Assembly (NCBI GenBank): GCA_020723325.1
Contig: DYJD01000009.1
Span: 62,001-126,000, forward strand
DNA: 64,000 nucleotides
Direction: 5' to 3'
Origin: Desulfosudis oleivorans
Lineage (GTDB): Bacteria > Desulfobacterota > Desulfobacteria > Desulfobacterales > SURF-7
Shown here: positions 39,799 through 55,952 of the stretch, piece by piece
Layout: every line of letters starts with the position of its first letter
How positions within the stretch are numbered: position 1 is the first letter of the stretch
The notes under the pieces: model-generated
What the model was told of the DNA's origin: nothing
The model's input: the letters and a program-made list of their open reading frames with translations, nothing else
Database searches by the model: none
Position numbers and translations under genes: made by a program

Positions 39799-40206
39799 AT
39801 GAAAAAAACAATCACCATATTGGTGGCTGACCGCAATCGCCACGTCCGTGAATTGCTGAAACGGGAACTTGCCGAGGCCGGCTATCGCATTCTTTTGGCC
39901 AAAACCGCCCTGGAGGTGAGCGACACCATTTATCAACAAAACCCGCCGGACCTACTGATCCTGGATCCGGATCTGCCGGATGACGAGAATATTCATTCCT
40001 TGAAATTGCTGCCTGAAAAAGCCCCTTCCCTCCCAATTATTCTGCACATGCATGCCGCCGATACAACCATTGACACTAGTGAAATCAAGTCAGTCGGTTT
40101 TGTGGAGAAAAACGGAAACAGCATTGAACATGTGAAAAAAATCGTTGCTGAAATAATGCAGGCCATGGAATTCGAAAAGTCCCCTCCGCCTATGTACAAT
40201 ATATAG
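39799..40206 (+). CDS. Degenerate response-regulator receiver protein
   Basis: 135 aa, single receiver-like domain. ATG 39799 was chosen; an in-frame TTG at 39763 lacks an SD. Phospho-acceptor candidate Asp56 in LLILDPDLPDDEN and switch Lys in GFVEKNGNS are present. The usual acidic pair near the N-terminus is reduced to one residue (VADRNRH), which would weaken Mg2+ binding. It may be a phosphorylation-impaired receiver. It follows the PstS-like gene by 65 bp and is likely cotranscribed from the same sigma-54 promoter. Confidence 0.78.
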   Translation: MKKTITILVADRNRHVRELLKRELAEAGYRILLAKTALEVSDTIYQQNPPDLLILDPDLPDDENIHSLKLLPEKAPSLPIILHMHAADTTIDTSEIKSVGFVEKNGNSIEHVKKIVAEIMQAMEFEKSPPPMYNI

Positions 40207-40462
40207 GGTAAGAGATAATATTTTTCATCCTCTTCTGATGGTCCGGGCGCGCCCGCCTCTATTCCATTTTTTATCTAACAAGCTATATATATTACAAAAT
40301 CATCCAATTACCCTTTGAATGTGGTCAACACCTCTTTTAATACAAAATTTGCATCGAATCCATTTTATGCTTGAAGGGAGTATCAATAACGATTATATCA
40401 GCGCTTTGCTGGAGATATTTGGCAATTGAAACCGGATAATAAATTTTTGGATCAGGTGGAAG

Positions 40463-40867
40463 ATGAGCCCTATAAAAGTGTTGCTGGTCGACGATGAGGA
40501 GCGCTTCGTCACCTCAAATGCAAGACTTCTAAAAAAACTAGGCTTTGAAGTATGGACAGCCCTGAGCGGTTCCGAAGCATTGCTGCAACTTGAAGCCAAT
40601 GACATCCATGTCGCTGTGGTGGATGTGAAAATGCCGGGAATGGATGGTATCACTCTGTTGCGGGAGACTAAAAAGCGTTTCCCACTGGTGGAAGTGGTCA
40701 TGCTCACGGGCAACGCCACTTTTGATACGGCTGTTGCCGGTCTTAAAATCGGCGCAAGCGATTACCTGATGAAGCCGGCTGATCTTGATGAATTAATTCA
40801 AAAAATCCAAGACGCATTTGAAAAGAGAAAGTTGCATGAAGAAAAAATCCGTCATGGAAAAATCTGA
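40463..40867 (+). CDS. Stand-alone response regulator (CheY-like), module A
   Basis: 134 aa. Acidic pair VDDEERF, phospho-Asp54 in VVDVKMPGMDG, Thr in MLTGNAT and Lys in LMKPADLDEL are all present. A roughly 20-aa charged tail (EKRKLHEEKIRHG) replaces an output domain. Close relative of the gene at 47724 (shared LTALSGSEA and KRFPLVEVVMLTG-type blocks). It leads the run of regulators before the TSUP transporter. The preceding 256 bp carries a GC-rich palindrome (40244-40255) but no gene. Confidence 0.9.
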   Translation: MSPIKVLLVDDEERFVTSNARLLKKLGFEVWTALSGSEALLQLEANDIHVAVVDVKMPGMDGITLLRETKKRFPLVEVVMLTGNATFDTAVAGLKIGASDYLMKPADLDELIQKIQDAFEKRKLHEEKIRHGKI

Positions 40868-40914
40868 TATATGCATACCAACCTCTCTATCCAACATATT
40901 AATATGGTGCCATC

Positions 40915-41337
40915 ATGAAGGTTTTATTTGTCGATGATGAAATTGATTTTTTGGAAATTATTCTCAAGCGAATGAAAAAGCGCGGGATTGACGCCATGGG
41001 CGCGGCCACAGAAGAACAAGCAATGGAAACTATAAGTAAAAATTCTATTGATGTCGTGATCCTGGATGTCAAGATGCCGGGCGGCAGAAGCGGCATCGAG
41101 ATCTTGACCGAAATCAAATATCGCTGGCCGCTGATTGAAGTCATCATGCTCACCGGCCACGCCATGTTGGAAGCAGCCCGGGACGGCATGGAAAAAGGCG
41201 CTTTTGATTACATTGTCAAGCCCGCTGACATCGACGACCTTTTCTACAAAATAAATGACGCCTGTAAAAAGAAATCCCTGCAGGAATTGAAAATAAAACA
41301 TATCGACAAGATCATGAAGGAAGAAATTAAAACGTAA
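40915..41337 (+). CDS. Stand-alone response regulator, module A
   Basis: 140 aa single receiver. VDDEIDFLEI, phospho-Asp51 in VILDVKMPGG, MLTGHAM and YIVKPADIDDL. The basic tail ends HIDKIMKEEIKT. Lies 48 bp after the previous receiver and 27 bp before the TSUP gene, all on the same strand, so these are probably one transcript. The output partner is unknown; the kinase at 45959 is a candidate phosphodonor. Confidence 0.9.
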   Translation: MKVLFVDDEIDFLEIILKRMKKRGIDAMGAATEEQAMETISKNSIDVVILDVKMPGGRSGIEILTEIKYRWPLIEVIMLTGHAMLEAARDGMEKGAFDYIVKPADIDDLFYKINDACKKKSLQELKIKHIDKIMKEEIKT

Positions 41338-41364
41338 ATTTAACGCAGTAAGGAGGTCTATCAA

Positions 41365-42645
41365 ATGAAATTTTTACTCAATGTAGGCCGGTTCTTGCAC
41401 GCCGGCGCAAGGGCCCACGCTGCCTGGGAAATCCAGACAGCCAACACCATCCTGACCAGCAGAAAACGTTTAATGGTTTTAGGTTTGCTGCTGCTCCCCA
41501 TCCTCATCGGCGGAATCGTATTTGCAGACAACATTGCCGCAGAACTCCCCAAGTACCTTGGCGGGAAAACCGCCTATAGTCCCTCGTTTTTCACCACTGG
41601 AATTTTTGTTTCATCCATTTTCATAGGCCTTTGCGCCGGTCTGATCACCGGGTGTATCGGTGCCGGTGGCGGGTTCATCATCGCCCCGGCCTTGATGAGC
41701 GCCGGTATCAAAGGTATCCTGGCCGTGGGTACCGACTTGTTCCATATTTTTGCAAAAGCTATCATGGGCAGTGTGTTGCATAAGAAACTCGGCAACATTT
41801 CCGTTTCCCTGGCCATCATTTTCCTGATCGGTTCCATGTTCGGCGCCACCCTGGGCGGTTGGATCAACCGGGTTCTGTATGAAATCAACCCCATCATCAG
41901 CGATGCCTTCATCACCACCATCTATGTATTAATGCTGGGCGGACTGGGTTTGTATTCCCTTATGGACTATTTCAAGGCCAGAAAAGCCGGCGGCGGCGGG
42001 GATATGCACGGCGGCGATGTCGAAGGCACCGAGATGGGCAACCTGCCCAAAAAACTCCAGGCCATCAATCTGCCCCCCATGGTATCCTTTGACCAGGGCC
42101 TAATTCCCGGCGGACGTCAAATTTCATCCTGGTTCCTGATATTAAGCGGATTTGCCGTGGGTCTCTGTGCGGCCATCATGGGTGTGGGCGGCGGCTTTTT
42201 AACCTTCCCCATCTTTGTATACGTTCTGGGTGTGTCTTCCATGACCACGGTGGGCACGGATATTTTCCAGATCATTTTCACCGCCGGTTACGCTGCCATC
42301 GGACAGTACGCCATTTACGGCTTTATCTTCTATACCCTGGCCATGGGCATGTTGCTGGGTTCCTTGCTCGGCATTCAAATCGGCGCCATGTCCACCAAGG
42401 TTGTAAAGGGCATCACCATCCGCGGCTTTTACGCCATGGCGGTACTGGCAGGCTTCATCAACCGCTTTTTCGCCCTGCCGGCCAAGCTGTCCTCTGTGGG
42501 CGCTTTTCCCCTTTCCAAAGAGCTCGGCAATACCCTGGACAAGATCGGCATCTGGCTTTTCTTTATTTTCATTTCCATTTTCGCTGTCTGGGTTATCGGC
42601 ACATTTGTGATGAACATCAAAAAATTAAAGGGCGAGGAGGCCTAA
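41365..42645 (+). CDS. TSUP-family (TauE/SafE) anion transporter, module A
   Basis: 426-aa integral membrane protein with about eight or nine helices in two halves. Each half carries the family GxGGGF motif: ITGCIGAGGGFIIAPALMSA near 95-114 and AAIMGVGGGFLTFPIFVYVL near 270-289. Cytoplasmic loop GGGGDMHGGDVEGTEM is Gly-rich and unusual. TSUP proteins move sulfite, sulfonates or related organic anions; the substrate here is unknown. SD AAGGAGG before ATG 41365. Followed 5 bp later by a helical membrane protein, then the dikinase-like protein, suggesting that transport and signalling are joined. Confidence 0.9.
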   Translation: MKFLLNVGRFLHAGARAHAAWEIQTANTILTSRKRLMVLGLLLLPILIGGIVFADNIAAELPKYLGGKTAYSPSFFTTGIFVSSIFIGLCAGLITGCIGAGGGFIIAPALMSAGIKGILAVGTDLFHIFAKAIMGSVLHKKLGNISVSLAIIFLIGSMFGATLGGWINRVLYEINPIISDAFITTIYVLMLGGLGLYSLMDYFKARKAGGGGDMHGGDVEGTEMGNLPKKLQAINLPPMVSFDQGLIPGGRQISSWFLILSGFAVGLCAAIMGVGGGFLTFPIFVYVLGVSSMTTVGTDIFQIIFTAGYAAIGQYAIYGFIFYTLAMGMLLGSLLGIQIGAMSTKVVKGITIRGFYAMAVLAGFINRFFALPAKLSSVGAFPLSKELGNTLDKIGIWLFFIFISIFAVWVIGTFVMNIKKLKGEEA

Positions 42646-42650
42646 ATAAG

Positions 42651-43343
42651 ATGATAGCCAATAAAAAAGAATTTACCGGCGGCATGGTCATGATGGCCGG
42701 ATTTATGGTGGTTCTAGTAATCATGTTCCTGCCGTTGTTTGAAGGCGGAAAAAACTGCTTGAATTATCTGGATGATCTGTTTAATTCCATTTCCAAGGAC
42801 TCTGCTTATTACATCCCGAAAATCAAAGAGGATGTGGCCAAGTCCCAAACCGGTAAAAACCTGACCATTGATTTGGGAATGGACTCAGAAGCCTTGGCCA
42901 AGGATTGCGAAACCCTCCTTAAAAAAAGCGGCGGAACAGCCACGGCTGAGGGTAAAATCGTAAAAGTTACCGGAGACCTGGGCCTGCTCCTGAAGAACTG
43001 CCTGGAAGATGCGGACACCCTTTTTCATAATAAAGGACAGGAGCTGCAGGATAAATATGGAATCGAAGGGAAAAAAGCGCTTTTTACCTGGTGGAGCACC
43101 CTCAAAGCTTTGCAGAAGTCCTTGGACAAGCAGCAGAAATTCGCTGAAGGCAAAGTTGTATACACCGTCATGACCAAGGCTGTGGAATGCGCCTACAACT
43201 ATTATAAGGTGGAACCCCAGAAAATGACCCAACGCCTGGGCATGGTGATTTTTTCCCTGATTTTTTATGTGATCTATACCATGTGGTATGGTTACGCGAT
43301 CCTGTATCTTTTTGAAGGTTGGGGACTCCAAATCAGCCACTAG
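42651..43343 (+). CDS. Unknown two-helix membrane protein, module A
   Basis: 230 aa. TM1 about 9-29 (GGMVMMAGFMVVLVIMFLPL), a roughly 165-aa helical extracytoplasmic or cytoplasmic domain rich in Lys/Asp with Cys residues (KNCLNYL, KDCETLL, KNCLEDA, VECAYNYY), then TM2 about 197-220 (LGMVIFSLIFYVIYTMWYGY). No family recognised. Start 5 bp after the TSUP stop and end 6 bp before the dikinase-like gene; it is clearly part of that operon. The paralogous module B has a small membrane protein in the matching place beside its TSUP gene. Confidence 0.8.
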   Translation: MIANKKEFTGGMVMMAGFMVVLVIMFLPLFEGGKNCLNYLDDLFNSISKDSAYYIPKIKEDVAKSQTGKNLTIDLGMDSEALAKDCETLLKKSGGTATAEGKIVKVTGDLGLLLKNCLEDADTLFHNKGQELQDKYGIEGKKALFTWWSTLKALQKSLDKQQKFAEGKVVYTVMTKAVECAYNYYKVEPQKMTQRLGMVIFSLIFYVIYTMWYGYAILYLFEGWGLQISH

Positions 43344-43349
43344 GATTCC

Positions 43350-45962
43350 ATGAATAGAATTGCTGAGTTTTTCAAGCGCCGTTTCGGACTTCAGAGATAC
43401 AAGGATGAATATAACACCGAAGAATTGCGCATTGCTTTCAAGGAACGTTATCATCATTTTAAATTGTTGCTGAATGCCAATAACAGTGCGCTTGAGATCA
43501 TGACCGGCATTGAGCAGGCGCTCCAGGCCAAAAAACCCTTTGGGATGTCTTTTGTGAAAACCAACTGCATCGCCGTCACGGTGAGCCTGTTGCGCCTGCT
43601 CAAAAATCTGGAACAATTAAGTGAGGGCAAATACAATCAACTATATCCCCGCTTTGATGATATATGCAATAAAATCAAATTTCTGATTGAGCAGAAAGCT
43701 GAAGCAAAAGACGAACGTTTCATTATTCCGCTGAATGCCATCGACCGCACCATGGTGGATCTGGTGGGCGGCAAGATGGCCAACCTGGGTGAAATTTTCA
43801 ACCGGGTACAACTCCAAGTGCCGGCCGGCTTTGCCATCACCGCCCATGCCTACCGGCATTACATTGAATGCAATGATCTCCAGACGGAAATCGACCGCCG
43901 TTTCATCGCCACTGATGTCACCGATATGGCGGCTCTCACCGTCCTCAGCAATGAAATCAGACAACTCATCCTGGAAGCGGATATTCCGCAAGGCCTGGCG
44001 GCTGAGATTCAAAAGGCCGCTTCCCTTCTGGAACAGGAAACCGGGCGAACCATTTCCGTGGCTCTCCGCAGCAGTGCCCAGGGCGAGGATTCGGCTGCGA
44101 ACTCATTTGCCGGCCAGTATCATTCAGAGCTGAATGTCGGTCTGGAAAACCTGCTGAAAACCTATAAAGAGATTGTAGCCAGCAAATACAGCCTGACCGC
44201 CATAACCTATCGGCTGAATAAGGGCATCCGGGATGAAGACATTGCCATGAGTGTGGGTTGCATCGTCATGGTCAATGCCCGGTCCGGCGGTGTCATGTAT
44301 ACCCGCAACCCCCTGGATACGGCGGACAGTTCCATTTTCATCAACTCCGCCTGGGGCCTGCCCAAGGCCGTTGTTGAAGGCAGCGTTGATTGCGACCTTT
44401 TTGTGGTGAGCCGCAACCAGCCCATGCAGGTCTCCCATAAAGAAATCAAAGAGAAAAAAAACCAATTCTTATGCTTTGGAGCCGACGGCAACTGCCAACT
44501 GGATCAAACCGGGATCGACAAGGATCTTCCCTCCATCCATGACGAGCAAGCCCTGGAACTGGCCAAACTGGCCATAACCATCGAACAATACTATGGCGCC
44601 CCCCAGGATATCGAATGGGCCATTGACCCTGATGGAAAGATTTATATTCTGCAATGCCGGCCGTTGCAGCAAATGGCTACCCTAAAAATCGACTACCCGG
44701 AAGAACTGCGCCTCAAATCCAAAGAGAATGTGCTGGCCTCTGGGGGTATTGTGATTTGTCATGGCTTGGCCAGTGGAGAAATTTTCACCGTAAACAGTCC
44801 GGCGGATATGGCCCGTTTCCCCCAGGGAGGAATTCTCCTGGCCAGACAGGCCCTACCCATCTGGGCTTCTTTATTAAACCGAGCCGTCGCAGTGATCACC
44901 GAGCATGGCACCTTTGCCGGTCATCTGGCCAATGTGGCCCGGGAATTCAAAGTTCCGGCGATTTTCGGCATGAAAGACATTACCGCCATTCTGAAAAACG
45001 GGGATCTGGTCACGGTGGATACAACCAATTTGAGTGTCTATAAAGGCCAGATATCCATGCCTGAAAAGGATATACAACCGGTGAAAAGTCCCATGGAGGG
45101 CAGCCCGGTGTACCAACTACTGCTGGAGGTCAGCCAATATATCATTCCCTTGTCCCTTTTGGATCCGTATGCACCGGATTTCAAACCTGAAAACTGCAAG
45201 ACCTTTCATGACATCACCCGTTTTGCCCATGAAAAATCCGTTCAGGAAATGTTCGATTTCGGCAAATCCCATAATTTTTCGGAAAGATCCAGCAAACAGC
45301 TTTACTACAAAGTTCCCATGCAATGGTGGATCTTGAATCTGGATGACGGTGTGAAAGAGGAAGTGAAAAGCAAGTATATCCGCCTGGAAAACATTTCCAG
45401 TATCCCCATGATAGCTCTCTGGGAAGGGATTATTGCCGTGCCCTGGGATGGTCCTCCGCCCATCGACAGCAAAGGACTCGTTTCCGTCATGTTCCAATCC
45501 ACCGCCAATCGGGGCTTGGAGCCGGGTATGCGTTCCGCCTACACGGAACGTAATTATTTCATGATCTCCAAAAATTTCTGCAGCTTCACTTCCCGCCTCG
45601 GTTATCATTTCTCCATTGTTGAGACCCTGGTCAGCGAGCGCACTGCGGAAAACTACGTCAGCTTCCGTTTTAAAGGCGGCGCTGCCGACAACCAGCGCCG
45701 CATCCGCAGAGTCCAGTTCATCGGCGACATCCTTACGGATTATTCCTTTCGCGTTGAAGTAAAAGAGGACAACCTGATTGCCCGCATGGAAGGTTATGAA
45801 ATGGATTATATGAAGGAAAGATTGAAAATCCTGGGCTATCTGATCATGCATACCCGTCAGTTGGATATGATCATGTCCAACAATGCGGCCATTAACTACT
45901 ATCGTTCGAAAATCGATAACGACATCAAGACCCATTTGCTTGGTACTAACGGGGAAAAATGA
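43350..45962 (+). CDS. PEP-synthase/PPDK-like protein without TIM barrel, module A
   Basis: 870 aa. Residues 1-125 form a helical domain of unknown family (FKERYHHFKLLLNANNSALE, IMTGIEQAL). About 130-440 is the ATP-grasp domain of pyruvate phosphate dikinase/PEP synthase: DLVGGKMANLGE, VALRSSAQGEDSAANSFAGQ, SGGVMYTRNP and DIEWAIDPDGKIYILQCRPL. About 460-560 is the swivelling phospho-His domain with GTFAGHLANVAREFKVPAIF, His525. The PEP/pyruvate-binding TIM barrel is absent; residues about 590-870 are a different domain (FHDITRFAHEKSVQEMF, FRFKGGAADNQRRIRR). So it may phosphorylate its own His or pass phosphate to another protein. ATGA overlap with the kinase gene follows. Confidence 0.88.
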   Translation: MNRIAEFFKRRFGLQRYKDEYNTEELRIAFKERYHHFKLLLNANNSALEIMTGIEQALQAKKPFGMSFVKTNCIAVTVSLLRLLKNLEQLSEGKYNQLYPRFDDICNKIKFLIEQKAEAKDERFIIPLNAIDRTMVDLVGGKMANLGEIFNRVQLQVPAGFAITAHAYRHYIECNDLQTEIDRRFIATDVTDMAALTVLSNEIRQLILEADIPQGLAAEIQKAASLLEQETGRTISVALRSSAQGEDSAANSFAGQYHSELNVGLENLLKTYKEIVASKYSLTAITYRLNKGIRDEDIAMSVGCIVMVNARSGGVMYTRNPLDTADSSIFINSAWGLPKAVVEGSVDCDLFVVSRNQPMQVSHKEIKEKKNQFLCFGADGNCQLDQTGIDKDLPSIHDEQALELAKLAITIEQYYGAPQDIEWAIDPDGKIYILQCRPLQQMATLKIDYPEELRLKSKENVLASGGIVICHGLASGEIFTVNSPADMARFPQGGILLARQALPIWASLLNRAVAVITEHGTFAGHLANVAREFKVPAIFGMKDITAILKNGDLVTVDTTNLSVYKGQISMPEKDIQPVKSPMEGSPVYQLLLEVSQYIIPLSLLDPYAPDFKPENCKTFHDITRFAHEKSVQEMFDFGKSHNFSERSSKQLYYKVPMQWWILNLDDGVKEEVKSKYIRLENISSIPMIALWEGIIAVPWDGPPPIDSKGLVSVMFQSTANRGLEPGMRSAYTERNYFMISKNFCSFTSRLGYHFSIVETLVSERTAENYVSFRFKGGAADNQRRIRRVQFIGDILTDYSFRVEVKEDNLIARMEGYEMDYMKERLKILGYLIMHTRQLDMIMSNNAAINYYRSKIDNDIKTHLLGTNGEK

Positions 45963-47680
45963 AGCCGACCCAGGAAAACAAATCCAATGATCAATATGGC
46001 TCCTTGCGACGCATGTTGCTGATCAACATGCTGGTGATTCCCTTTGTTCCTTTTCTGCTGGTGGTTATCAGCGGCGGTTATTTTTTTTATACCTCCATTG
46101 AAAACAACACCATTGCCACTATGAAACGAATCGTGGGCGACCATCGCCAGTTCATCGAGTTTTTCCTGGATGAACGTAAATCCGACCTGACCTGGGTGTT
46201 GAATACCTATTCTGTGGATCAACTTTCCCAGTCCGAGCAGCTCCAGAAAATCATCCGCGCACTTCATGAGAAATCCGTGGCCTTTGCTGATCTTGGATTT
46301 TTTGATGAAGCCGGCATTCATTTGGCCTATTGGGGACCCTATCAATTAAGCGGCAAAATTTACAGCGATGCCTTCTGGTTTAAGGAAGTCATTAAAAAAG
46401 GCTGGTATATCAGCGATGTCTTTCTCGGCTTTCGCAATGAGCCCCATTTCATCATCGCTGTATCCAAAAATGACGGCAAAAAAAAATGGGTATTGCGAGC
46501 CACCATCGATTCCCATGTATTTACCGACTTGGTTGAACGGGTTCGCATCGGCAAAACCGGTGAGGCTTATATTTTGAATAAGGAAGGCTATTTTCAGACC
46601 GAGCAGCGCTCAGGCGGTTTGTTGATGACTCATGATCCGGAACATGAAAAAAATCCTGATTACCACACCGGCATTGAAACTTTCATTCAAAAAGATCAGC
46701 AGGGCAGTGAATATTTGTATGCCACCACCTGGCTGAAATCCAATGACTGGCTGCTGGTGGTGCGTCAGGAAAAGAGCGATGCCTTCAAATCCTTACACAT
46801 GGCCACGCTTTTCAGTCTAGGTATTTCCGCTCTAAGCGGTATGCTGATCATTCCCATGGCATTTTATCTGGCCGGCCGTATCATCCGGCGCATGGAGAAA
46901 ATGGATGCAGCCCAAAGTCTTCTAGAACAACAACTTATCGGCGCCAGCCGGCTGGCGGAGCTAGGTGAGATGGCGGCCGGGTTTGCCCATGAGATCAACA
47001 ATCCCCTGCAAATTATGAAAAGCGAAAAGGCCTTGATCGACATGGTCTTGACCGACTTGGTGAAAGACAATCCCTTAAAAGACTCGGATGAAATCCACAC
47101 CCTGTTTGATTCCCTGTCGCAAATTCAATTGCAGATCAATCGTTGTGCCAAAATCACCCAATCCATTTTAAAATTCGGTCGTCAGGGAGAACCGGCCCCT
47201 CAGCAAATTACCCTGCAACAATTCATCCCGGAAATTACGGCCATGGTGGAAAAACGCGCCGAAGTGGAAGGAATCCGAATAAAAAAGGAAATCCATGCAA
47301 AAACGCCGCAAATCTATGCTGACCCAAGTCAACTTCAACAGGTTTTGCTCAATCTGTATAATAATGCCATTGACGCCATTCTCGAAAAAAAATCACCGGA
47401 TGGGGGCCAACTTTCTATTCTAGTGCGGCCTGATAAGGAACGTAATGTTGAAATCTCCGTCATCGATACCGGTGTGGGCATCAGCCCGGAAAATCTGGAA
47501 AAACTATTCACACCATTTTTCACCACCAAACCGGTGGGCAAGGGCACGGGTTTGGGGCTGGCGGTTTGTTACGGCATAGTTCAAAGCATGGGCGGGAAAC
47601 TCACGGCCATCAGCCAACAGGGGATTGGTACGACTTTTACGCTGAAGCTTCCCACGCAAATATCGACCAAAAGAGAATAA
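45959..47680 (+). CDS. Cache-domain sensor histidine kinase (NtrB-like), module A
   Basis: 573 aa. TM1 about 15-42 (LLINMLVIPFVPFLLVVISG), a periplasmic double-Cache region with GKTGEAYILNKEGYFQTEQR, TM2 about 279-302 (LFSLGISALSGMLIIPMAFY). The kinase has phospho-His in GFAHEINNPLQIMKSEK, N-box VLLNLYNNAIDAILEK, VIDTGVGIS and GTGLGLAVCYGIVQSMGG. The HEINNP form is typical of NtrB/ZraS kinases that serve sigma-54 regulators. Overlaps the dikinase-like gene by 4 bp and is followed 43 bp later by a receiver, its likely partner. Confidence 0.93.
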   Translation: MKPTQENKSNDQYGSLRRMLLINMLVIPFVPFLLVVISGGYFFYTSIENNTIATMKRIVGDHRQFIEFFLDERKSDLTWVLNTYSVDQLSQSEQLQKIIRALHEKSVAFADLGFFDEAGIHLAYWGPYQLSGKIYSDAFWFKEVIKKGWYISDVFLGFRNEPHFIIAVSKNDGKKKWVLRATIDSHVFTDLVERVRIGKTGEAYILNKEGYFQTEQRSGGLLMTHDPEHEKNPDYHTGIETFIQKDQQGSEYLYATTWLKSNDWLLVVRQEKSDAFKSLHMATLFSLGISALSGMLIIPMAFYLAGRIIRRMEKMDAAQSLLEQQLIGASRLAELGEMAAGFAHEINNPLQIMKSEKALIDMVLTDLVKDNPLKDSDEIHTLFDSLSQIQLQINRCAKITQSILKFGRQGEPAPQQITLQQFIPEITAMVEKRAEVEGIRIKKEIHAKTPQIYADPSQLQQVLLNLYNNAIDAILEKKSPDGGQLSILVRPDKERNVEISVIDTGVGISPENLEKLFTPFFTTKPVGKGTGLGLAVCYGIVQSMGGKLTAISQQGIGTTFTLKLPTQISTKRE

Positions 47681-47723: not shown

Positions 47724-48137
47724 ATGGATACAATGACGCTGTTAGTTGTGGACGACGAGGAACGCTTCCTCATCACCACCCAGAAATTGCTTGAAAAAAA
47801 GGGCTATCAGGTTCTGACCGCCCTGAGCGGTAGCGAGGCCATGGTGCAGTTAAACAATCATATAGTGCATGTGGTCATCCTGGATGTTAAAATGCCCGGC
47901 AAGGACGGCAACATCATCTTAAAGGAAATCAAGCATCAATTCCCCCTGGTGGAGGTCATCATGCTCACCGGTCATGCCACGGTGGAATCCGCCATTGATG
48001 GTCTCAAATCCGGGGCCACGGATTATCTGACCAAACCCATTGATATGGATGAATTGATTCAAAAAGCAGAAGAAGCCTTTGAAAAAAGAAAACGAGTTGA
48101 GGAAAAAATCCGCAAGGCTGAATCGACAAGATCTTGA
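47724..48137 (+). CDS. Stand-alone response regulator, module A
   Basis: 137 aa receiver only. VDDEERF, phospho-Asp54 in VILDVKMPGKDG, MLTGHAT, YLTKPIDMDEL; tail EKRKRVEEKIRKAE. Very similar to the receiver at 40463, suggesting duplication at both ends of the module. No DNA-binding domain, so it must act by protein contact. SD GGGGAAAG before ATG 47724. Convergent with module B's minus-strand operon. Confidence 0.92.
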   Translation: MDTMTLLVVDDEERFLITTQKLLEKKGYQVLTALSGSEAMVQLNNHIVHVVILDVKMPGKDGNIILKEIKHQFPLVEVIMLTGHATVESAIDGLKSGATDYLTKPIDMDELIQKAEEAFEKRKRVEEKIRKAESTRS

Positions 48138-48475: not shown

Positions 48476-48805
48476 TTACTTCTTCATCAGATCCTGCTTG
48501 CTCACATTCATGACCTTCAGACCGACTTTTTTACTGCCGTCGACCTTGTAAGCAATTCTGAGAATATCCTTGGGTTCCGGTTTCATACCGATCTGGGCAT
48601 TGGAAAGATCCAATTCGCTTTCATTGGCCGTGGGCCGGCCGTATTTGAATTCCTTGCTGAAATTGGTGTCAAATTCCTTGACTTTAACGATATTGGTGCT
48701 CGCGTCATATGCCAGGCATTCTCCCTGGATAACTTCGGATGCCATGGCATTGACCGAAAAGACCAGTGCCAGGATGAGCATGCCGATGGTGATAATATTT
48801 TTCAT
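48476..48805 (-). CDS. Small periplasmic protein, module B
   Basis: 109 aa. Signal peptide MKNIITIGMLILALVFSVNA with cleavage after AMA. The mature part (SEVIQGECLAYDASTNIVKV ... KPEPKDILRIAYK) looks like a small beta-rich domain, of no recognised family. Strong SD (GAAGGAGAAGATGA) before ATG 48805. Follows the TSUP gene by 33 bp in the same operon; possibly a periplasmic partner of the transporter (inference). Confidence 0.7.
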   Translation of the reverse strand: MKNIITIGMLILALVFSVNAMASEVIQGECLAYDASTNIVKVKEFDTNFSKEFKYGRPTANESELDLSNAQIGMKPEPKDILRIAYKVDGSKKVGLKVMNVSKQDLMKK

Positions 48806-48838: not shown

Positions 48839-49876
48839 TCAATGAACCGCCTTTACAGTGGCATTGCCGGATTTCTTTTCGTGTAATTCCTCTATGGCCC
48901 CTTGGATCATGATTTTAACGATATAGGCACAGATTACACCGATGGTGCCGAGAATCAGGACGGCAGCCGCTTGATTGAACTTAAACTCTTTCAGCACGAT
49001 GGAGATCATGCAGCAAAGAACCGCGATACCGAAAGCTATCCGGATGCCGTAACCCTTGGCGTATTTTGTGGCCACGGTGCCGATCTGGGCCCCGATGGCT
49101 GCGCCGGTGAGCATAACGAACACGGCCACAATCTCGATGCGGCCCTTGATGGCGTAGGTAAAAGCGCCGTACAAACCGGAAATCATAACCTCGAACAGGT
49201 CCGTTCCCACGGCGATATGGGTGGGGCAGCCGATGAGATACACCAAAGCAGGCATGCGAATCAGACCTCCGCCGATTCCGAGGAATCCGGCCAGCACGCC
49301 GGTAACGAAACTTGCGGTTATGGGCAACCAGGCTGAGCAGGTGAAGCCGGCTGCTTTGAAATGCATCATGGGCGGTATTTTGATCTTGTGCAGGGTCTTG
49401 TACCAGGTGATCCCCTCGGCCCCGTGCTCGCCCACATCCCCTTGCTTCTTTTTCTGGGTGGCTTTGTAATAATCATAAAAAACCAGCCAGGCGATCAGGG
49501 CCAGGAGTCCCACATAGACCCAGCGTACCACGGATTCCACACTGCCCAAACGCTCCAGCACCATGACAATCTGCGCACCCACTTCAATACCCGCCATGGT
49601 GCCGACGATCATTACAAGGCCGAGCTTATAATCCACATTGCCGAATTTGGAATGCCGCATGGTGGACACCATGGATTTGCCGGCGATATGAGCCATGTCC
49701 GTGCCGATGGCAAAGGCCATGGGAAAACCAAGAATATTGAGTCCGGGGGTTACCATCCAGGCCCCGCCCATTCCGAAAAAACCGCCGATGGTTCCCACGG
49801 CAAAACCGATGAGCACCAGACCCGGCCAGAAAATTTTCACGCCTGCAATGGGCATGTACATAATCATCCAATCCAT
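48839..49876 (-). CDS. TSUP-family (TauE/SafE) anion transporter, module B
   Basis: 345 aa, about eight helices. GxGGG-type motifs: FAVGTIGGFFGMGGAWMVTP near 22-41 and GVLAGFLGIGGGLIRMPALV near 195-214; the conserved IAVGTDLFEV follows. Shorter than the module A transporter and lacking its Gly-rich loop. SD AAGGAGGATATG before ATG 49876. Same operon as the 110-residue membrane protein at 50235, under a sigma-54 promoter on the minus strand. Confidence 0.9.
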   Translation of the reverse strand: MDWMIMYMPIAGVKIFWPGLVLIGFAVGTIGGFFGMGGAWMVTPGLNILGFPMAFAIGTDMAHIAGKSMVSTMRHSKFGNVDYKLGLVMIVGTMAGIEVGAQIVMVLERLGSVESVVRWVYVGLLALIAWLVFYDYYKATQKKKQGDVGEHGAEGITWYKTLHKIKIPPMMHFKAAGFTCSAWLPITASFVTGVLAGFLGIGGGLIRMPALVYLIGCPTHIAVGTDLFEVMISGLYGAFTYAIKGRIEIVAVFVMLTGAAIGAQIGTVATKYAKGYGIRIAFGIAVLCCMISIVLKEFKFNQAAAVLILGTIGVICAYIVKIMIQGAIEELHEKKSGNATVKAVH

Positions 49877-49923: not shown

Positions 49924-50235
49924 TTAGTGTTCAATGATCTTGCGACTCTTCAAATCCAGCCCGGTCTTGGACATCAGAAAATCCATTAAAAAGCCTAAAG
50001 CCACACCATACAGGGCGGTGAGCACCGTACACCAAATTGCGAAAACCACAATATTGGTGTTGTATGCATCCGCCAGGTAGCGCATGAAACCATGGTAATA
50101 ATCCGTCTCTGTGATCACCCGGGTATCGGCCACTACGATCAAGGCTGAAGCCTTATCGCCGCCTGCCAAGGCCAAACTCGGCATCAGCACGGCAACCATC
50201 AAGCCGATGATGACAACCAGTTGCAATTTCCTCAT
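49924..50235 (-). CDS. Small signal-anchored membrane protein, module B
   Basis: 103 aa. ATG 50235 was chosen for AAAAGGAGG 6 nt upstream. N-terminal signal LQLVVIIGLMVAVLMPSLAL ending ALA, extracytoplasmic part TDYYHGFMRYLADAYNT, then a helix IVVFAIWCTVLTALYGVALG (about 59-78) and a short cytoplasmic tail. No known family. First gene of the operon with the TSUP transporter; compare the 230-aa protein beside the module A transporter. Confidence 0.72.
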   Translation of the reverse strand: MRKLQLVVIIGLMVAVLMPSLALAGGDKASALIVVADTRVITETDYYHGFMRYLADAYNTNIVVFAIWCTVLTALYGVALGFLMDFLMSKTGLDLKSRKIIEH

Positions 50236-50340
50236 GTTGTTCCTCCTTTTTTCCACATTGTTGACTGTTTTAAATCCAAACCATAGCTTGTATCGAAAAA
50301 GCCTAAATCCTAAATTCGTTCTGTTTGCAGGATCTCAAAT

Positions 50341-50355
50341 GCAATTGAAGTGCCA
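50341..50355 (-). promoter_or_regulatory. Sigma-54 promoter of the module B transporter operon
   Basis: Minus strand TGGCAC-TTCAA-TTGC, a consensus -24/-12 pair with correct spacing, about 105 bp before ATG 50235. Divergent from the membrane-bound enhancer-binding-protein gene. Confidence 0.8.
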
Positions 50356-50440: not shown

Positions 50441-52993
50441 ATGAGTCTCATGCACCGATTCACCGAGGGGGAGCTTGTCCTGTTTCCAGGCAGCACCAAG
50501 GATTTCAGCTTGCGAACCAAGCTTTTAATCACCCTGATTCCATCTTTGATATTGATTTTATTGGTAACCGGATATATTACCTATCTCACTTCCCATCATT
50601 TTCTTAATCAGGCTTTGGAACGTACAGCACGAATTCAAGTCAAGGCCATGACTCATGAAATCAACAGCGTCATTGCACGAAGCAACCAGAATCTTCTATC
50701 GATTGCACAGTTCTTTTTCTCGGGAATCAATCTGCAACATCCATTTGCAAGATTATTGCGCGCAGAACCCGAGTTGTACTGCGCTATAGGTTATATCTCG
50801 CAAACCGATCAAATCCATTCGTTTTTAGTTGCAAAAGAAAATCAAATCGTGCAGATCCCAGTTCCCATGATTTCTGACATCAATCCTGATCCTCTTTTAC
50901 TTTTTGAGCAGCTATCCCGTTTGCAGGGGAATGAAATCTGGCACTCCACTGTGGCTGAAACAGAATTTCCATTTCCCTTGCCAGACAATCCCAATCAGAA
51001 GATCCGCATAAAAACCATCTCCTTTGGAACACCCTGCTATTCAGAAAAAGGCGACAAAACAGGCTATTTAATTCTTTATATAGATATACGCCATCTTCGT
51101 AATATCCTTTCCACATTCAATTCCGCCAAATCACCCCTATGGGCTTTTCCGCGCACCCCGGAGACCCGTTATGCATATCTGTTTGATCTGGAAGGTTGGG
51201 TCTTGTTCCAGTCTGAAGATCCGGAGAAACATGAACTGGATCTGACCACGGATCTTGTCCGGTCCAATTATAAAAGCAGTACCCTGGGCAAGCCGGGTTT
51301 GCCTGTTGCTTTTCAGCCCGCCTCCAGATTCAAAACCTTCTGGAAAATGGTTGAGGATGTCAAAGCAGGTAAGCACGATCTTATTGAAATGCGTGGATCT
51401 CCTCGGGATGGCGCAACTATCAAAGAATTTTATCTGACATATGCTCCCATTTTGTTTAATAATAGGGTCTTCGCCGGCATCGCCTATGTCGACCGCACCC
51501 GTTTTACCTTGGCTGCCGGTTACAAACACTTGGACATCATGCTGATTTTATCCATCTCAACCATTGTGGCCGTTTCCTTTATCATCTTTGTTCTATCCCA
51601 TGTGATCACCCAGCCCATTTATAAACTGGCTGAAGTGGTCAATGATATCAAAGGAAACGCCGAGCTGGTACCCATCGACATCCGCGCTCAGGGCTATGAA
51701 GCCAATTTATTGCAAAATGCCATCAACCACTTAATTGAGGTGGCCAATACCCGTATGGCGGAAATCAGGCGTAAGGAACTTGAGATTCAGACTGTGGAAT
51801 TTAAGGAAAGAATAGAGCTTAAAAACGAATTTCCAAATGCTGTTGAAACCATCTACACGGAAGAATTTCCGGAAATTGTCGGTTTCAGCCCCACCAGCCG
51901 ACAATATAAATCAGAGCTTCGCAAGGCGGCCAATGCCGAAGCGGATGTTCTGATTATCGGTGAAACCGGCACCGGCAAACAACTAGCCGCTGAAGCTATC
52001 CACCGCCACAGTCGCCGTGCTGAAAATCATTTTATTTCAGTTAACTGCGGTGAACTTTCGGAAAGCCTGCTTTTGGACAGCTTGTTCGGGCATATCAAAG
52101 GCGCTTTTACCGAAGCCAAGACAGATAGAAAGGGGGCTTTCTGGGAAGCCCACGGCGGCACCCTATTTCTAGATGAAATTCAAACTGCATCCCCAAATGT
52201 ACAACAGGCCCTGCTGCGGGCCGTGGCCATGCGCAAAATCAAACCATTGGGGACGGACCGGGAAATCGATGTGGATGTCCGGTTGATTTGCGCCACCAAT
52301 GTGGATCTCCGGCTGCTGATTGAAAACCAGCAGTTCAGATCCGATTTATATTTCCGGTTAAAGGTCATCACCATTTACACGCCGGCCTTGCGGGACCAAA
52401 AAGAAAACATCCCGGTGCTGGTGGATTATTTTCTCAAGCAATTACGGGAAACCACCAAACGCGAGGATTTGGGAATCAGTAAGGGCGCTTTGGAAAAAAT
52501 GAAAGAATACAACTGGCCGGGCAACATCCGGGAATTGATGAATTGTATCACCCGGGCTGCGGTCATGGCGGAAAATGCCATCATCCAAGCCGAGGACATC
52601 TTGCTGGAAAATCCATCCACGTTGAATCCGCAGATTCATCCAATGGAAAAGGCCGGGGGAGCAAGCTCATCCGGCCTTTCTGCGGTATCGGCCAAAGAAG
52701 TCCCGCCCCATGCAGAAACCAACGGAACAGCACCAACGCCAATGCAGAGCGCCGTTCCCCAAATGAACAGCCGCCAGGAAAAAGTGTATTCCTACCTTCT
52801 CCACCATCGCAGCATCACCCGCAATGAATATCAACAACAGGTGGGCAGCAATGTTTCCACCAGAACCGCTATCTATGATCTGCAGGATTTGGTAAAGAAA
52901 GGCCTGCTGCGCAAAGAGGGCAACGGTCCTGCCACCCGCTATATTCTGATGGATCGTACGGATCAGGGAGAGTTCCATGTTCGCCTTTCTTAA
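50441..52993 (+). CDS. Membrane-anchored sigma-54 enhancer-binding protein with Cache sensor, module B
   Basis: 850-aa one-component activator. TM1 about 27-49, a periplasmic Cache-like region (50-364), TM2 about 365-388, HAMP-like linker (ITQPIYKLAEVVNDIKGNAE), then AAA+ with Walker A GETGTGKQ (507-514), Walker B TLFLDEIQTA, the R-finger region and WPGNIRELMN. The sigma-54 contact loop reads GAFTEA (554-559) instead of GAFTGA. The C-terminus is a winged-helix-like domain (EKVYSYLLHHRSITRNEYQQ) in place of the usual Fis-type HTH. So sensing, ATPase and probable DNA binding are in one membrane protein. It overlaps the dikinase-like gene by 17 bp. Confidence 0.88.
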   Translation: MSLMHRFTEGELVLFPGSTKDFSLRTKLLITLIPSLILILLVTGYITYLTSHHFLNQALERTARIQVKAMTHEINSVIARSNQNLLSIAQFFFSGINLQHPFARLLRAEPELYCAIGYISQTDQIHSFLVAKENQIVQIPVPMISDINPDPLLLFEQLSRLQGNEIWHSTVAETEFPFPLPDNPNQKIRIKTISFGTPCYSEKGDKTGYLILYIDIRHLRNILSTFNSAKSPLWAFPRTPETRYAYLFDLEGWVLFQSEDPEKHELDLTTDLVRSNYKSSTLGKPGLPVAFQPASRFKTFWKMVEDVKAGKHDLIEMRGSPRDGATIKEFYLTYAPILFNNRVFAGIAYVDRTRFTLAAGYKHLDIMLILSISTIVAVSFIIFVLSHVITQPIYKLAEVVNDIKGNAELVPIDIRAQGYEANLLQNAINHLIEVANTRMAEIRRKELEIQTVEFKERIELKNEFPNAVETIYTEEFPEIVGFSPTSRQYKSELRKAANAEADVLIIGETGTGKQLAAEAIHRHSRRAENHFISVNCGELSESLLLDSLFGHIKGAFTEAKTDRKGAFWEAHGGTLFLDEIQTASPNVQQALLRAVAMRKIKPLGTDREIDVDVRLICATNVDLRLLIENQQFRSDLYFRLKVITIYTPALRDQKENIPVLVDYFLKQLRETTKREDLGISKGALEKMKEYNWPGNIRELMNCITRAAVMAENAIIQAEDILLENPSTLNPQIHPMEKAGGASSSGLSAVSAKEVPPHAETNGTAPTPMQSAVPQMNSRQEKVYSYLLHHRSITRNEYQQQVGSNVSTRTAIYDLQDLVKKGLLRKEGNGPATRYILMDRTDQGEFHVRLS

Positions 52994-55556
52994 AAATATT
53001 TTCAATAGACCCGGCAAATCGCAATCCAATCCAGACCGCATGATGAATATTTTCCGAAAGAAATATACGGATTTTAAAATGCTGTTGGAGTCCAACGCAG
53101 AATTGCTGAAGATCATTTCCGGCATGGAGGAGAAATTGGACGGCCGGCATGTTTTCGGCATGTCCTACATCCGTTCCGAAATGGTCCGGACTGTTTTCCA
53201 TTGCGCTCGCATGATTCGCAGTTTTGAAGCCCTTTCCGGTCGCGCCTATCCGGAACTGATGGAATCCCTGAATCATATCCAATCCGCCATCAATCAGGAG
53301 TTGGAACTGAAAAATGTGCCCCGGGTGACGAATCTGGTTCTGCCCTACAGTGCCATCAACCGGGACATGCATGATTTTATCGGTGGTAAAAACGCCCATC
53401 TTGGCGAGTTGAAAAGCCGGGCCCTGGTGCCGGTTCCCCGGGGCTTTGCAATTACCACAACGGCCTTTAATGAATTCATCGAATATAATGACCTAATGGA
53501 TGAAATTCGGAAACAAAAGATGGAGCTTGATGGGAAATCCCCGGAATCCATTATGATGGTCAGTGAACGGATTCAAGAACTGTTTATTCAGGCTGCAGTG
53601 CCGCCGGTCCTGGAAGAAGCCATTTTACAAGCTTATGCGGATGAAATCTCTTCCGACTTCAGCGTCAAGGTGGCCATGCGCAGCAGCGCCATAGGAGAGG
53701 ACAGCGCCCTTTCCTTTGCCGGCCAATACCAAAGTTTTTTAAATGTACCGCGGCGGGACATCATTCAGAAATACAAAGAAGTATTGGCCAGCCTGTTCAC
53801 GCCGCGCGCCATATCCTATCGCCTGCACATGGGGATTTCCTTTGAAGAAGCGGCCATGAGCGTCGCCTGTCTGGAGATGGTCAGCGCCAAGGCCGGCGGT
53901 GTGGCCTATACGCGGCATCCTTTCCAAATCCAGCAGGACAACATCATCATCAATGCATCCTGGGGGCTCGGTGTTTTTGTTGTGGATGGAGTCGTGGTTC
54001 CGGATACTTATGTTATGTCAAAAGAAGCAATCCCACGACTGTTGGAATCCACGGTTAATGCTAAAATGAAACGCCTGGATATTCATCCGGATGGTGGATT
54101 ATTGGAAACAGAGGTGGAACCTGGTCTGCAAAATGCGCCCAGTTTGACTGCGGATCAGGCCGGTCTTCTGGCCCGGTATGCAGTCAAATTGGAAACCCAT
54201 TTCCAATCCCCCCAGGACATTGAATGGGCCCTGGACCAAAACGACAATATCGTAATCTTGCAAACCAGGCCGTTGCGGGTGGAAGGGAAAAAAGAAGCCC
54301 TGTTCGCAACCCAATGTTATGATGCTTATCCGCTCCTGATTGAAAAAGGCCAGGTGGCCTGTCCCGGGGTTGGCTACGGCCCGGCCCACATTATTCACTC
54401 TGAAGAAGACCTGCTTACCTTTCCGGACGGCGGTGTGCTTGTGGCTGCCCATTCCTCCCCCCAATATGCCATCGTCATGGGTAGAGCCCAGGCGATTATC
54501 GCCGATTCCGGTAGCGTTACCGGTCATATGGCTTCCCTGGCAAGGGAATTCAAGGTCCCTACAGTGTTGAACACGAAAAACGCCACCAAAACCATCAAAG
54601 CCGGGATGGACATCACGGTGGATGCCTTTGGCGGGAGGGTGTATTCCGGCAAGGTGGCCGAGCTTTTCAATATAAAATGGGAACGCGGCTCCTTTATGAA
54701 GGACACACCTGTATATCAAACCCTTAAAAAGCTTTCCCAATACATTGTGCCCCTGAACCTGGTCAATCCCAAATCCAGGGAATTCACACCCAAAAATTGT
54801 CAAACCGTCCATGACATCATGCGGCTGGCCCATGAATTATCCTATGGCAAGATATTCCAAATAAGTGATTTCACTACAGATCACGGCAGCATCTCGGTTA
54901 AACTCGTGGCAACCCTCCCCATTGATTTGTATATCATTGATCTTGGCGGCGGCCTTGATATCCCTAAAAAAACATCCAAGATCTCCATCGACCAGGTGAT
55001 TTCAACACCAATGAAAGCGATTCTGAACGGCATGCTGAACAGGGACCTGAAACCCTGTGAACCGCGTCCCATCAACGTCAGCGGTTTTCTCTCAGTGGTC
55101 AGTCAGCAGATGTTGGCACCGCCCAACCCGGTGATGGAACGCTTCGGCGACAGGAGCTATGCCATCATTTCAGACAAATACCTGAATTTCAGCTCGCGGG
55201 TGGGGTATCATTACAGCATTTTGGATTGCTATTGCGGCAAAACCCCCATGAAAAACTATATCAGCTTCCAATTCAAGGGCGGGGCCGCAGACAATGTGAG
55301 GCGCAACCGCAGGGCCCGCCTGATTCGCAATGTTCTGGAAGCCAACGGATTCTTGGTGGAGGTTCAAGGAGACCGGGTGGCGGCCCGTTTTGTAAAACAA
55401 GAAGCTGAAGTCATCACCGAAAAACTGGATCTCCTGGGCAGATTGCTGATTTACTCCCGTCAGATGGACATGCTCATGAACAGTGAAGAGAGCGTTACCT
55501 TGCTGGCTGATCATTTTTTAAACGGAAGCTATGACCTGGAAGGCGTTTGCCGCTAG
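52977..55556 (+). CDS. PEP-synthase/PPDK-like protein without TIM barrel, module B
   Basis: 859 aa, paralogue of the protein at 43350 with the same layout. N-terminal helical domain (1-110, KKYTDFKMLLESNAELLKII), ATP-grasp domain with FIGGKNAHLGELKSR, VAMRSSAIGEDSALSFAGQ, AGGVAYTRHP and DIEWALDQNDNIVILQTRPL, phospho-His domain with GSVTGHMASLAREFKVP (His517), and the C-terminal domain with VHDIMRLAHELSYGKIF and FQFKGGAADNVRRNRRARL. Again no PEP/pyruvate TIM barrel. SD GGGAG in the 3' end of the regulator gene; the 17-bp overlap couples translation to that gene. Confidence 0.88.
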   Translation: MFAFLKNIFNRPGKSQSNPDRMMNIFRKKYTDFKMLLESNAELLKIISGMEEKLDGRHVFGMSYIRSEMVRTVFHCARMIRSFEALSGRAYPELMESLNHIQSAINQELELKNVPRVTNLVLPYSAINRDMHDFIGGKNAHLGELKSRALVPVPRGFAITTTAFNEFIEYNDLMDEIRKQKMELDGKSPESIMMVSERIQELFIQAAVPPVLEEAILQAYADEISSDFSVKVAMRSSAIGEDSALSFAGQYQSFLNVPRRDIIQKYKEVLASLFTPRAISYRLHMGISFEEAAMSVACLEMVSAKAGGVAYTRHPFQIQQDNIIINASWGLGVFVVDGVVVPDTYVMSKEAIPRLLESTVNAKMKRLDIHPDGGLLETEVEPGLQNAPSLTADQAGLLARYAVKLETHFQSPQDIEWALDQNDNIVILQTRPLRVEGKKEALFATQCYDAYPLLIEKGQVACPGVGYGPAHIIHSEEDLLTFPDGGVLVAAHSSPQYAIVMGRAQAIIADSGSVTGHMASLAREFKVPTVLNTKNATKTIKAGMDITVDAFGGRVYSGKVAELFNIKWERGSFMKDTPVYQTLKKLSQYIVPLNLVNPKSREFTPKNCQTVHDIMRLAHELSYGKIFQISDFTTDHGSISVKLVATLPIDLYIIDLGGGLDIPKKTSKISIDQVISTPMKAILNGMLNRDLKPCEPRPINVSGFLSVVSQQMLAPPNPVMERFGDRSYAIISDKYLNFSSRVGYHYSILDCYCGKTPMKNYISFQFKGGAADNVRRNRRARLIRNVLEANGFLVEVQGDRVAARFVKQEAEVITEKLDLLGRLLIYSRQMDMLMNSEESVTLLADHFLNGSYDLEGVCR

Positions 55557-55559
55557 TTT

Positions 55560-55952
55560 TCACCGAAACTTTTGTTTTTCCAGACGCTGTTCGTATGCGT
55601 TTGAAATTTTTACCAGCAATTCGTCCACATCGCATGGTTTCAGCAGATAATCGTAGGCTCCATATTTGACGATTTCCACGGCGGTGTCCAGGGAGGCATG
55701 CCCTGACAGCACGATCACTTCCGCCTGGGAGCCCTTTTCCTTCAACTGTTTCAGAACCTCGATGCCGCTGATGCCGGGCATCTTGACATCCAAGAGGATC
55801 ACGTCGTAGGAAGTACGGAAAATTTCCGCCAGGGCATCTTGACCGCGGTTGACCGCCGTGGCGGATATTTTGCGAGCAGTTAAAATTTTCAGCATGGATG
55901 CACAAAATTGTTCTTCGTCATCCACAATCAGAACTTTGGGTGTATTCGGCAT
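55560..55952 (-). CDS. Stand-alone response regulator, module B
   Basis: 130 aa. ATG 55952 begins MPNTPKVLIVDDEEQF; a longer frame to 56015 adds a non-conserved hydrophobic leader. Phospho-Asp55 in ILLDVKMPGISG, VLSGHAS and YLLKPCDVDEL. Convergent with the dikinase-like gene, the stops only 3 bp apart, and divergent from the Usp operon across the region that carries the sigma-54 promoter and activator element. Confidence 0.9.
   Translation of the reverse strand: MPNTPKVLIVDDEEQFCASMLKILTARKISATAVNRGQDALAEIFRTSYDVILLDVKMPGISGIEVLKQLKEKGSQAEVIVLSGHASLDTAVEIVKYGAYDYLLKPCDVDELLVKISNAYEQRLEKQKFR

Follow-up and report, generated by a model that had tools for sequence, protein, structure and literature searches.

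A barrel-less PEP-synthase-like protein family encoded beside TSUP transporters in dsrA-bearing Desulfobacterota

Introduction

Dissimilatory sulfate reduction begins with the uptake of sulfate. In a comparative review, sulfate reducers are described as rich in TSUP proteins, for which functional prediction is said not to be feasible; DASS/SLC13 is a second family with sulfate carriers among its members (PMC5840216). None of the words pyruvate, phosphoenolpyruvate, two-component and histidine occurs in the review text. Here, we report on a 64,000-nucleotide stretch of Desulfosudis oleivorans DNA (assembly GCA_020723325.1, contig DYJD01000009.1, positions 62,001 to 126,000 of the forward strand), hereafter the window, in which two gene modules, A (40463-48137) and B (48157-55952), each join a TSUP transporter gene to the gene of a large protein. 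Both large proteins resemble phosphoenolpyruvate (PEP) synthase and end in a C-terminal domain (residues 586-850 of large protein A). The host genome (7.2 Mb, 113 contigs) contains dsrA.

A nitrate-related cluster of this kind was studied in Desulfovibrio (DVU0251-DVU0245 / Dde_0597-0605). As given in the available part of PMC4001038, it encodes a TauE protein (DVU0251), a hypothetical protein (DVU0250), a PtxB-like protein (DVU0249), a kinase (DVU0248), a receiver (DVU0247), a PPDK/mobile-domain protein (DVU0246) and a phosphatase (DVU0245). Growth of single insertion mutants in DVU0246, DVU0247, DVU0250 and DVU0251 was the same whether or not 100 mM nitrate was present, and that of the DVU0245 mutant was inhibited; the authors proposed a leaky thiosulfate transporter and wrote that the roles of these genes were not immediately obvious (PMC4001038). 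Among the loci collected here, L200 has the same gene order and family content when checked gene by gene (TSUP, hypothetical protein, binding protein, histidine kinase, receiver, protein with PPDK_N and mobile-histidine domains), and L201 keeps the order TSUP, kinase, receiver, large protein. The C-terminal domain is present in the large proteins of both loci (220 bits for L200 and 209 for L201), and we infer from the gene order that DVU0246 carries it too. The order TSUP-hypothetical-PtxB-like-histidine kinase-receiver-PPDK-like-phosphatase is not that of the window modules, and loci of this type differ from them by a divergent TSUP protein (53-58 bits with the model of this study) and an added dual-specificity phosphatase. 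The binding protein between TSUP and kinase in L200 (PF12974) is also different from the PBP_like_2 protein encoded 5' of module A.

The second system is the DVU0151 regulon, in which a one-component activator with no Fis domain and with the motif GAFSEA is the predicted driver of the divergent transmembrane-transport operon DVU0150-DVU0146 (PMC4641369, part of the text). Module B likewise has a sigma54 AAA+ activator, with no Fis helix-turn-helix among its listed matches, and, divergent from it and preceded by a sigma54 promoter-like site, an operon that starts with a DVU0150-family gene and continues with TSUP; it is unlike the published regulon in its motif, GAFTEA, and in its large protein, of which the available part of PMC4641369 makes no mention. 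The layout of module B, with the large protein adjoining the activator, was found again at locus L206.

On the catalytic side, RPH, HpeHI, CreHI and PpsAB have the same two catalytic domains as the large proteins and an exchanged acceptor domain. In these relatives, ATP charges a swivelling histidine, AMP and phosphate are released and the domain swings to the exchanged acceptor, as reported in the available parts of PMC4844700 and PMC12167813. Unlike in the large proteins, the histidine domain of RPH comes last, and HpeHI and PpsAB consist of two proteins acting on phenols. PEP synthase and PPDK share with the large proteins an ATP-grasp domain followed by a swivelling histidine domain, in the same order and with the same catalytic residues; the large proteins are without the pyruvate barrel and have additional N- and C-terminal regions. 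Enzyme I of the sugar phosphotransferase system (PTS) offers a functional analogy, a phosphohistidine swivel domain tied to transport, from which the present system differs by its presumed donor, ATP and not PEP, and by its carrier, TSUP; no HPr or EII is among the parts identified.

The open-licence literature searched yielded no paper that connects TSUP with this PPDK-like family as such. A first-pass annotation of the window had called the system undescribed. This can be kept for the family, whose description was not found in that literature; the activator/TSUP half of module B resembles the regulon of PMC4641369, and the Desulfovibrio mutants were described, in the part of PMC4001038 available, so that the gene association had been touched in part by earlier genetics.

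Large proteins A and B combine dikinase-type catalytic domains with a conserved C-terminal domain

Large proteins A and B aligned nearly end to end, with 36% identity over 851 columns. The alignment took in about 120 N-terminal residues and residues 586-850, two regions for which no Pfam family was matched. Between them, both proteins carry a PPDK_N ATP-grasp domain and a PEP-utilizers mobile domain with its catalytic histidine, the combination that places a protein in the swivelling-histidine dikinase superfamily. In an alignment of 158 rows (153 of them distinct), the catalytic residues were Lys142 in 156 rows, Arg240 in 157, Glu422 in 157 and His525 in 155 of 157 unmasked rows. Two residues before this histidine, where PEP synthase has a regulatory threonine (PMC12167813, part of the text), most rows have Ala (105/158), while 42/158 have Thr. 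Eight residues of the C-terminal domain (Asp621, Arg624, His627, His753, Gly776, Gly777, Arg787, Asp839) were found in all 158 rows, and in 73 rows this domain was no less conserved than the catalytic part (mean majority by segment 0.66-0.74 versus 0.63-0.68). HDxxRxxHE and FxGGA are motifs of this domain.

The large proteins were compared with known dikinases. The ATP-grasp and histidine domains are closest to those of PEP synthase, and the 28 rows retrieved at E ≤ 0.001 with the full-length model were PEP synthase, HpeI, RPH, PPDK and pyruvate kinase chains or domains. This closeness would fit an ordinary or degenerate PEP synthase of carbon metabolism, an explanation that we consider very improbable. 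For neither protein was a PEP/pyruvate barrel family listed at E ≤ 0.1, and the secondary structure in the models of the C-terminal part is not that of a barrel series. The PEP-synthase equivalogs TIGR01418 (344.5 bits for A and 356.9 for B, cut-off 739.75) and NF005057 (367.6 and 364.6 bits, cut-off 598) were not reached, the scores being 0.47-0.61 of the two cut-offs; the same was true of the rifamycin phosphotransferase model NF041857 (227.2 and 225.6 bits, cut-off 999) and of the listed PPDK equivalogs. Furthermore, the host genome has four other PPDK_N loci, and no TSUP match was seen at the three that were checked.

The C-terminal domain was then compared with known families and structures. 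Pfam gave no consistent family for 76 members, with a best single E value of 0.015; the most frequent weak match was DUF5960, in five members, at E 0.03 or worse. The AlphaFold model of large protein A had a mean predicted local distance difference test score (pLDDT) of 83.4, and the C-terminal domain alone also reached 83.4. A sequence search of the PDB returned only matches at E ≥ 0.36. With Foldseek and VIA there was no clear match of the domain among solved structures, which does not by itself show a new fold: the best Foldseek row (E 0.014) belonged to another protein, many weak DHHA1-type rows accompanied it, and the best VIA score was Z 6.1 over 78 residues. The DHHA1 lead was dropped after comparison by hhalign with two DHHA1 domains of the host genome (probability 0.2%), a weak test since the DHHA1 profile held two rows. 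The acceptor domains of RPH, HpeHI and PpsAB gave no clear match with it.

As anticipated by the first-pass annotation, the catalytic residues are thus retained, a barrel family is absent from the matches and the terminal regions are conserved and without family; the structure prediction that it called for gave the models described above. The large proteins appear to be of the swivelling-histidine dikinase type, with an exchanged and so far undescribed acceptor or output domain.

The large gene is linked to TSUP genes in other genomes

Two sets of loci were used to establish gene linkage. The named set comprised the best 80 of 159 relatives obtained by a pattern scan over 84,980 species, and is for that reason biased toward type A (defined below). 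The phylum set comprised 60 regions hand-picked from the matches listed for 107 genomes. Genes were usable when they were at least 1800 bp long and lay at least 4 kb from both locus ends. Five phylum-set genes identical to named-set genes were removed, which changed the TSUP figure from 35/55 to 32/52 (receivers and histidine kinases stood at 45/55 and 36/55 before removal).

Among usable distinct genes, a TSUP gene was found within 5 kb of the large gene in 33 of 35 cases in the named set and in 32 of 52 in the phylum set. By chance, a TSUP gene would be expected at this distance in 2.5% of cases on average and 4.5% at the highest, perhaps 6% since the TSUP counts per genome are lower bounds (density was taken from the best nine scored; 13-15 TSUP genes were seen in four genomes). 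Because of these lower bounds, and because two genomes were typed twice in the estimate, the chance level is given as roughly 2-6%. The pairing of TSUP with a barrel-less PEP-synthase-like protein, first noticed in the window and supported there by the Pfam scores of Table 1, is therefore a conserved one, and the link between large protein and transporter is well supported. Of the sequence results that the first-pass annotation had set as refutations, a PEP/pyruvate barrel and missing co-occurrence with TSUP genes elsewhere, neither was obtained. The commonest order 5' of the large gene was receiver-TSUP-membrane protein (44 of 153 distinct genes; contig ends cut many others).

Some copies are accompanied by SLC13-type symporters: one similarity cluster groups such neighbours, at distances of up to 4 kb, from 11 loci (PF00939 in both proteins checked). 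By a model built from one sequence, which misses some of this cluster, SLC13 lay within 5 kb in 4/35 named-set and 3/52 phylum-set genes. One fixed gene context was ruled out, 20 of the 52 phylum-set genes having neither a TSUP nor an SLC13 match within 5 kb. At 11 loci (L145:10221-12908 and ten more), a protein of acyl-CoA synthetase type with a GNAT acetyltransferase part is encoded within 4 kb, one of them checked with Pfam.

Receivers were frequent neighbours too, being present within 5 kb of 34/35 and 42/52 usable genes. As the receivers of the window modules are stand-alone, the large protein could be a kind of histidine kinase serving as phosphodonor to them, the TSUP gene being a mere regulatory target. 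We give this explanation a low probability, since ordinary histidine kinases are also close (31/35 and 33/52) and the context follows the TSUP subtype, as described below.

The C-terminal domain is nearly restricted to dsrA-bearing genomes in the sampled Desulfobacterota

In a sample of 297 Desulfobacterota genomes, the C-terminal domain was detected in 107 and dsrA scored over the cut-off in 143; 102 genomes had both, 5 the domain only, 41 dsrA only and 149 neither (Fisher test, 1.3e-38, phylogeny ignored). The five domain-bearing genomes without a dsrA match are 62-80% complete. By family, dsrA was present in all 38 families with the domain, and 13 of the 51 families with dsrA were without it. 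Within the sampled phylum, the domain is nearly restricted to dsrA-bearing genomes. The dsrA-positive, domain-negative families of the sample include f29, f62, f40 and f17, among others. The titles of the best 80 of the 159 relatives bear Desulfobacterota or Deltaproteobacteria names, or unassigned names of metagenome-assembled genomes.

Genes of the DVU0150 family scored over the cut-off in 56 of the 297 genomes, all 56 of which also have the C-terminal domain. When the 58 genes concerned were placed relative to the listed copies of the large gene, 40 lay within 12 kb, 5 farther away on the same contig and 13 on contigs without a listed copy, the listed copies being a minimum.

Two old lineages and catalytically dead copies

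In a tree of 105 rows (of a quick kind, midpoint-drawn), a branch with support 100 parts the two window proteins, leaving 78 rows with A and 27 with B. A recent tandem duplication of modules A and B is ruled out by this tree; the duplication proposed in the first-pass annotation holds insofar as the large proteins are paralogous, and it is ancient. Judging by the tree, A and B represent two old paralogous lineages. The long branches of the first copy in L174 and of L098, L190 and L193 are placed with less certainty, and the grouping of L098 and L193 may be spurious. Both lineages stand side by side at several loci (L051, L059, L063 and L139; L135 and L137 repeat L051 and L059).

Rows were then labelled by the genes within 2.5 kb, as type A (TSUP-A or membrane protein A) or type B (TSUP-B or DVU0150 protein). 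Type-A context occurred in 50 rows of clade A and in none of clade B, and type-B context in 8 rows of clade B and 1 of clade A; 44 of the 105 rows had no labelled neighbour and 2 had both context types. Window protein B counts as unlabelled because the labels reach only 2.5 kb. The TSUP subtype thus tracks the lineage of the large protein.

Seven genomes of one genus were in the sample. Six of them have a catalytically dead copy within a few kb of an intact one (Table 1), and the seventh (G235) had no domain match. In the dead copies, Lys142 is replaced by Ala, Glu422 by Thr, Gln435 by Met or Leu and His525 by Arg; Arg240 and Arg437 are retained. Fifteen C-terminal positions were compared, of which only position 812 varies among the six copies and the other 14 are conserved throughout. 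Similarly, the copy of L190, located beside TSUP and membrane protein genes, has lost the histidine domain and several ATP-grasp residues and kept the C-terminal domain. The C-terminal domain therefore probably has a role that is independent of its own histidine.

These copies speak for a non-phosphorylating energy sensor, in which the ATP-grasp half only senses ATP/AMP, the carrier is gated through binding of the C-terminal domain and the histidine is unused in transfer. This explanation is likewise of low probability, given that the ATP-grasp residues and His525 (155/157) are retained in the alignment, which held one of the six dead copies.

Proposed function of the modules

The reading that we favour, with about as much confidence as doubt, is that the large protein is an ATP-charged phosphohistidine protein licensing the uptake of sulfur oxyanions in sulfate reducers, phosphotransfer, target and substrate being inferred. 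Each module would serve a dissimilatory sulfate reducer as a unit for anion uptake, in which TSUP would carry a sulfur oxyanion (sulfate, thiosulfate or sulfite) and nitrate may leak through a related TSUP. The large protein would bind ATP and phosphorylate its own swivelling histidine as in PEP synthase, PPDK and RPH; the phosphoryl group would pass to the C-terminal domain, or to a partner that this domain binds, and the cognate transporter would thereby be licensed. The receivers, the cache kinase and the sigma54 activator would set expression and the on/off state from outside signals. Loss of the large protein would block anion entry, as the nitrate phenotype of the matching Desulfovibrio cluster suggests.

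Dikinases of this kind split ATP to AMP and phosphate, and sulfate activation directly alters ATP versus AMP. The charge of the histidine would thus follow ATP versus AMP, and sensing of this balance by the large protein is a plausible addition to the model.

Several points weigh against a licensing role. Phosphorylation of the large protein and its contact with TSUP are presumed, and the dead copies indicate that the histidine is dispensable in some cases. As to distribution, 41 of the 143 dsrA genomes are without the C-terminal domain; no TSUP match was obtained in 14 of the 60 phylum loci, the 20 usable phylum-set genes without TSUP or SLC13 neighbour have been mentioned, and a third copy in the host genome (L098:10342-13530) adjoins ChrB and an MFS protein. 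As to the genetics, within the available part of PMC4001038, the DVU0245 mutant was still inhibited by nitrate, the pooled fitness of DVU0250 was negative, contrary to its individual mutant, that of DVU0246 was modest (2.18), and complementation was done for rex only, so that the shared nitrate phenotype could partly be polar. Finally, the assignment of a sulfur substrate rests on unpublished thiosulfate data of the same study (PMC4001038).

The main rival, itself rather improbable, is a metabolic dikinase, in which a small anion brought in by TSUP would bind to the C-terminal domain and be phosphorylated there, and so be trapped or activated. Relatives with exchanged acceptors do phosphorylate small molecules: RPH acts on rifampin (PMC4844700, part of the text), HpeHI and PpsAB act on phenols, and CreHI is a further example; trapping is suggested in the available part of PMC12167813. 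An active site could be formed by the invariant His, Arg and Asp residues of the C-terminal domain, and the acyl-CoA synthetase/GNAT protein at 11 loci could be counted in favour of this rival. However, no other metabolic enzyme recurs in the largest neighbour clusters, and the constant neighbours are receivers and kinases; the dead copies retain the C-terminal domain; and copies pair alike with TSUP, SLC13 and MFS carriers.

A broader form of the licensing model, possible although doubtful, is that of an unnamed ATP-driven phosphohistidine system specific to dissimilatory sulfate reducers, a functional counterpart of the PTS, whose new output domain would act even in dead twins, intact and dead copies forming regulatory pairs.

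Under the licensing model, the large-protein family would mark the TSUP genes that belong to sulfate respiration, and the active-site histidine would make control of uptake directly testable. The model could also explain one phenotype across several genes of the nitrate cluster, and bears on the control of oil souring by nitrate.

Gene content of modules A and B

The features of the window are collected in Table 1, together with the dead copies of other genomes. Module A is collinear, in the order receiver, receiver, TSUP, membrane protein, large protein, histidine kinase, receiver. Its genes had been described as overlapping or a few bp apart, which applies to the gaps of 5 and 6 bp flanking the membrane protein gene and to the 4-bp overlap of large protein and kinase; elsewhere 27-47 bp separate them.

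The modules had also been credited with matching parts, and on this point the annotation has to be corrected. Module B is no copy of module A: TSUP-B and the small membrane protein are encoded on the minus strand, divergently from a sigma54 activator whose gene overlaps that of large protein B by 17 bp, and no histidine kinase gene is among the genes of the module. Nor are the small membrane proteins counterparts, that of module A having no Pfam or NCBIfam match and that of module B being a member of the DVU0150 family.

The window was searched with a sigma54 (-24/-12) pattern. The site 5' of the DVU0150-TSUP-B pair was the sole match without mismatch in the window. With one mismatch, 6 sites were found versus 7.86 expected; such sites being no commoner than expected, only the exact site and its position are informative. 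Three one-mismatch sites on the plus strand (38844-38859, 56217-56232 and 59301-59316) each lie less than 100 bp 5' of an open reading frame (ORF). No Fis family was among the Pfam matches listed for the activator, and its C-terminus had only weak, sub-threshold matches of the winged-helix kind, of DeoR type (13.2 bits, cut-off 21) and of penicillinase-repressor type.

Table 1. Features of the window (positions count from its first nucleotide) and catalytically dead copies at other loci
Feature	Position	Strand	Evidence and remarks
Periplasmic binding protein (PBP_like_2), 5' of module A, possibly associated	38912..39733	+	99.6 bits
Receiver, 5' of module A, possibly associated	39763..40206	+	Response_reg 41.5 bits
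Stand-alone receiver, module A	40463..40867	+	ORF
Stand-alone receiver, module A	40915..41337	+	ORF; receivers directly 5' of TSUP recur at other loci
TSUP transporter A (TauE)	41365..42645	+	Pfam TauE PF01925 121.7 bits, cut-off 32.6; aligned with 71 relatives
Membrane protein A	42651..43343	+	Hydrophobic stretch at both ends, middle domain (topology by eye); aligned with 76 relatives
Large protein A	43350..45962	+	PPDK_N 309.1 bits, PEP-utilizers 60.3 bits; N-terminal region 1-120, ATP-grasp 137-443, phospho-His domain 490-559 (His525), C-terminal domain 586-850
dCache histidine kinase	45959..47680	+	HATPase_c 100.3 bits, dCache_1 51.6 bits
Stand-alone receiver, module A	47724..48137	+	ORF
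Small secreted-looking protein	48476..48805	-	DUF4881 match below threshold (18.7 bits, cut-off 27)
TSUP transporter B (TauE)	48839..49876	-	Pfam 148.1 bits, cut-off 32.6
DVU0150-family small membrane protein	49924..50256	-	NF040783 115.9 bits, equivalog cut-off 70
Sigma54 (-24/-12) promoter-like site, 5' of DVU0150-TSUP-B pair	50340..50355	-	Zero mismatches
DVU0151-like sigma54 activator	50441..52993	+	Sigma54_activat 198.8 bits; AAA+ with GAFTEA; weak cache-like N-terminus
Large protein B	52977..55556	+	PPDK_N 298.5 bits, PEP-utilizers 63.8 bits; parts as in protein A; His517
Stand-alone receiver, module B	55560..56015	-	ORF
Dead copy	L174:3890-6637		
Dead copy	L207:963-3650		
Dead copy	L208:965-3697		
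Dead copy	L209:6021-8651		
Dead copy	L210:777-3395		
Dead copy	L211:7280-10021		

Some further observations concern the surroundings of the large genes. Genes for DUF4881 or similar proteins follow TSUP-B at other loci too. The third copy of the host genome has an extra C-terminal stretch with lectin/3-keto-disaccharide-hydrolase-like matches, below cut-offs. Directly 3' of module B (56311-58253), the window encodes two proteins of universal-stress type, recognized by eye from the translation, and similar genes were seen near some other copies of the large gene.

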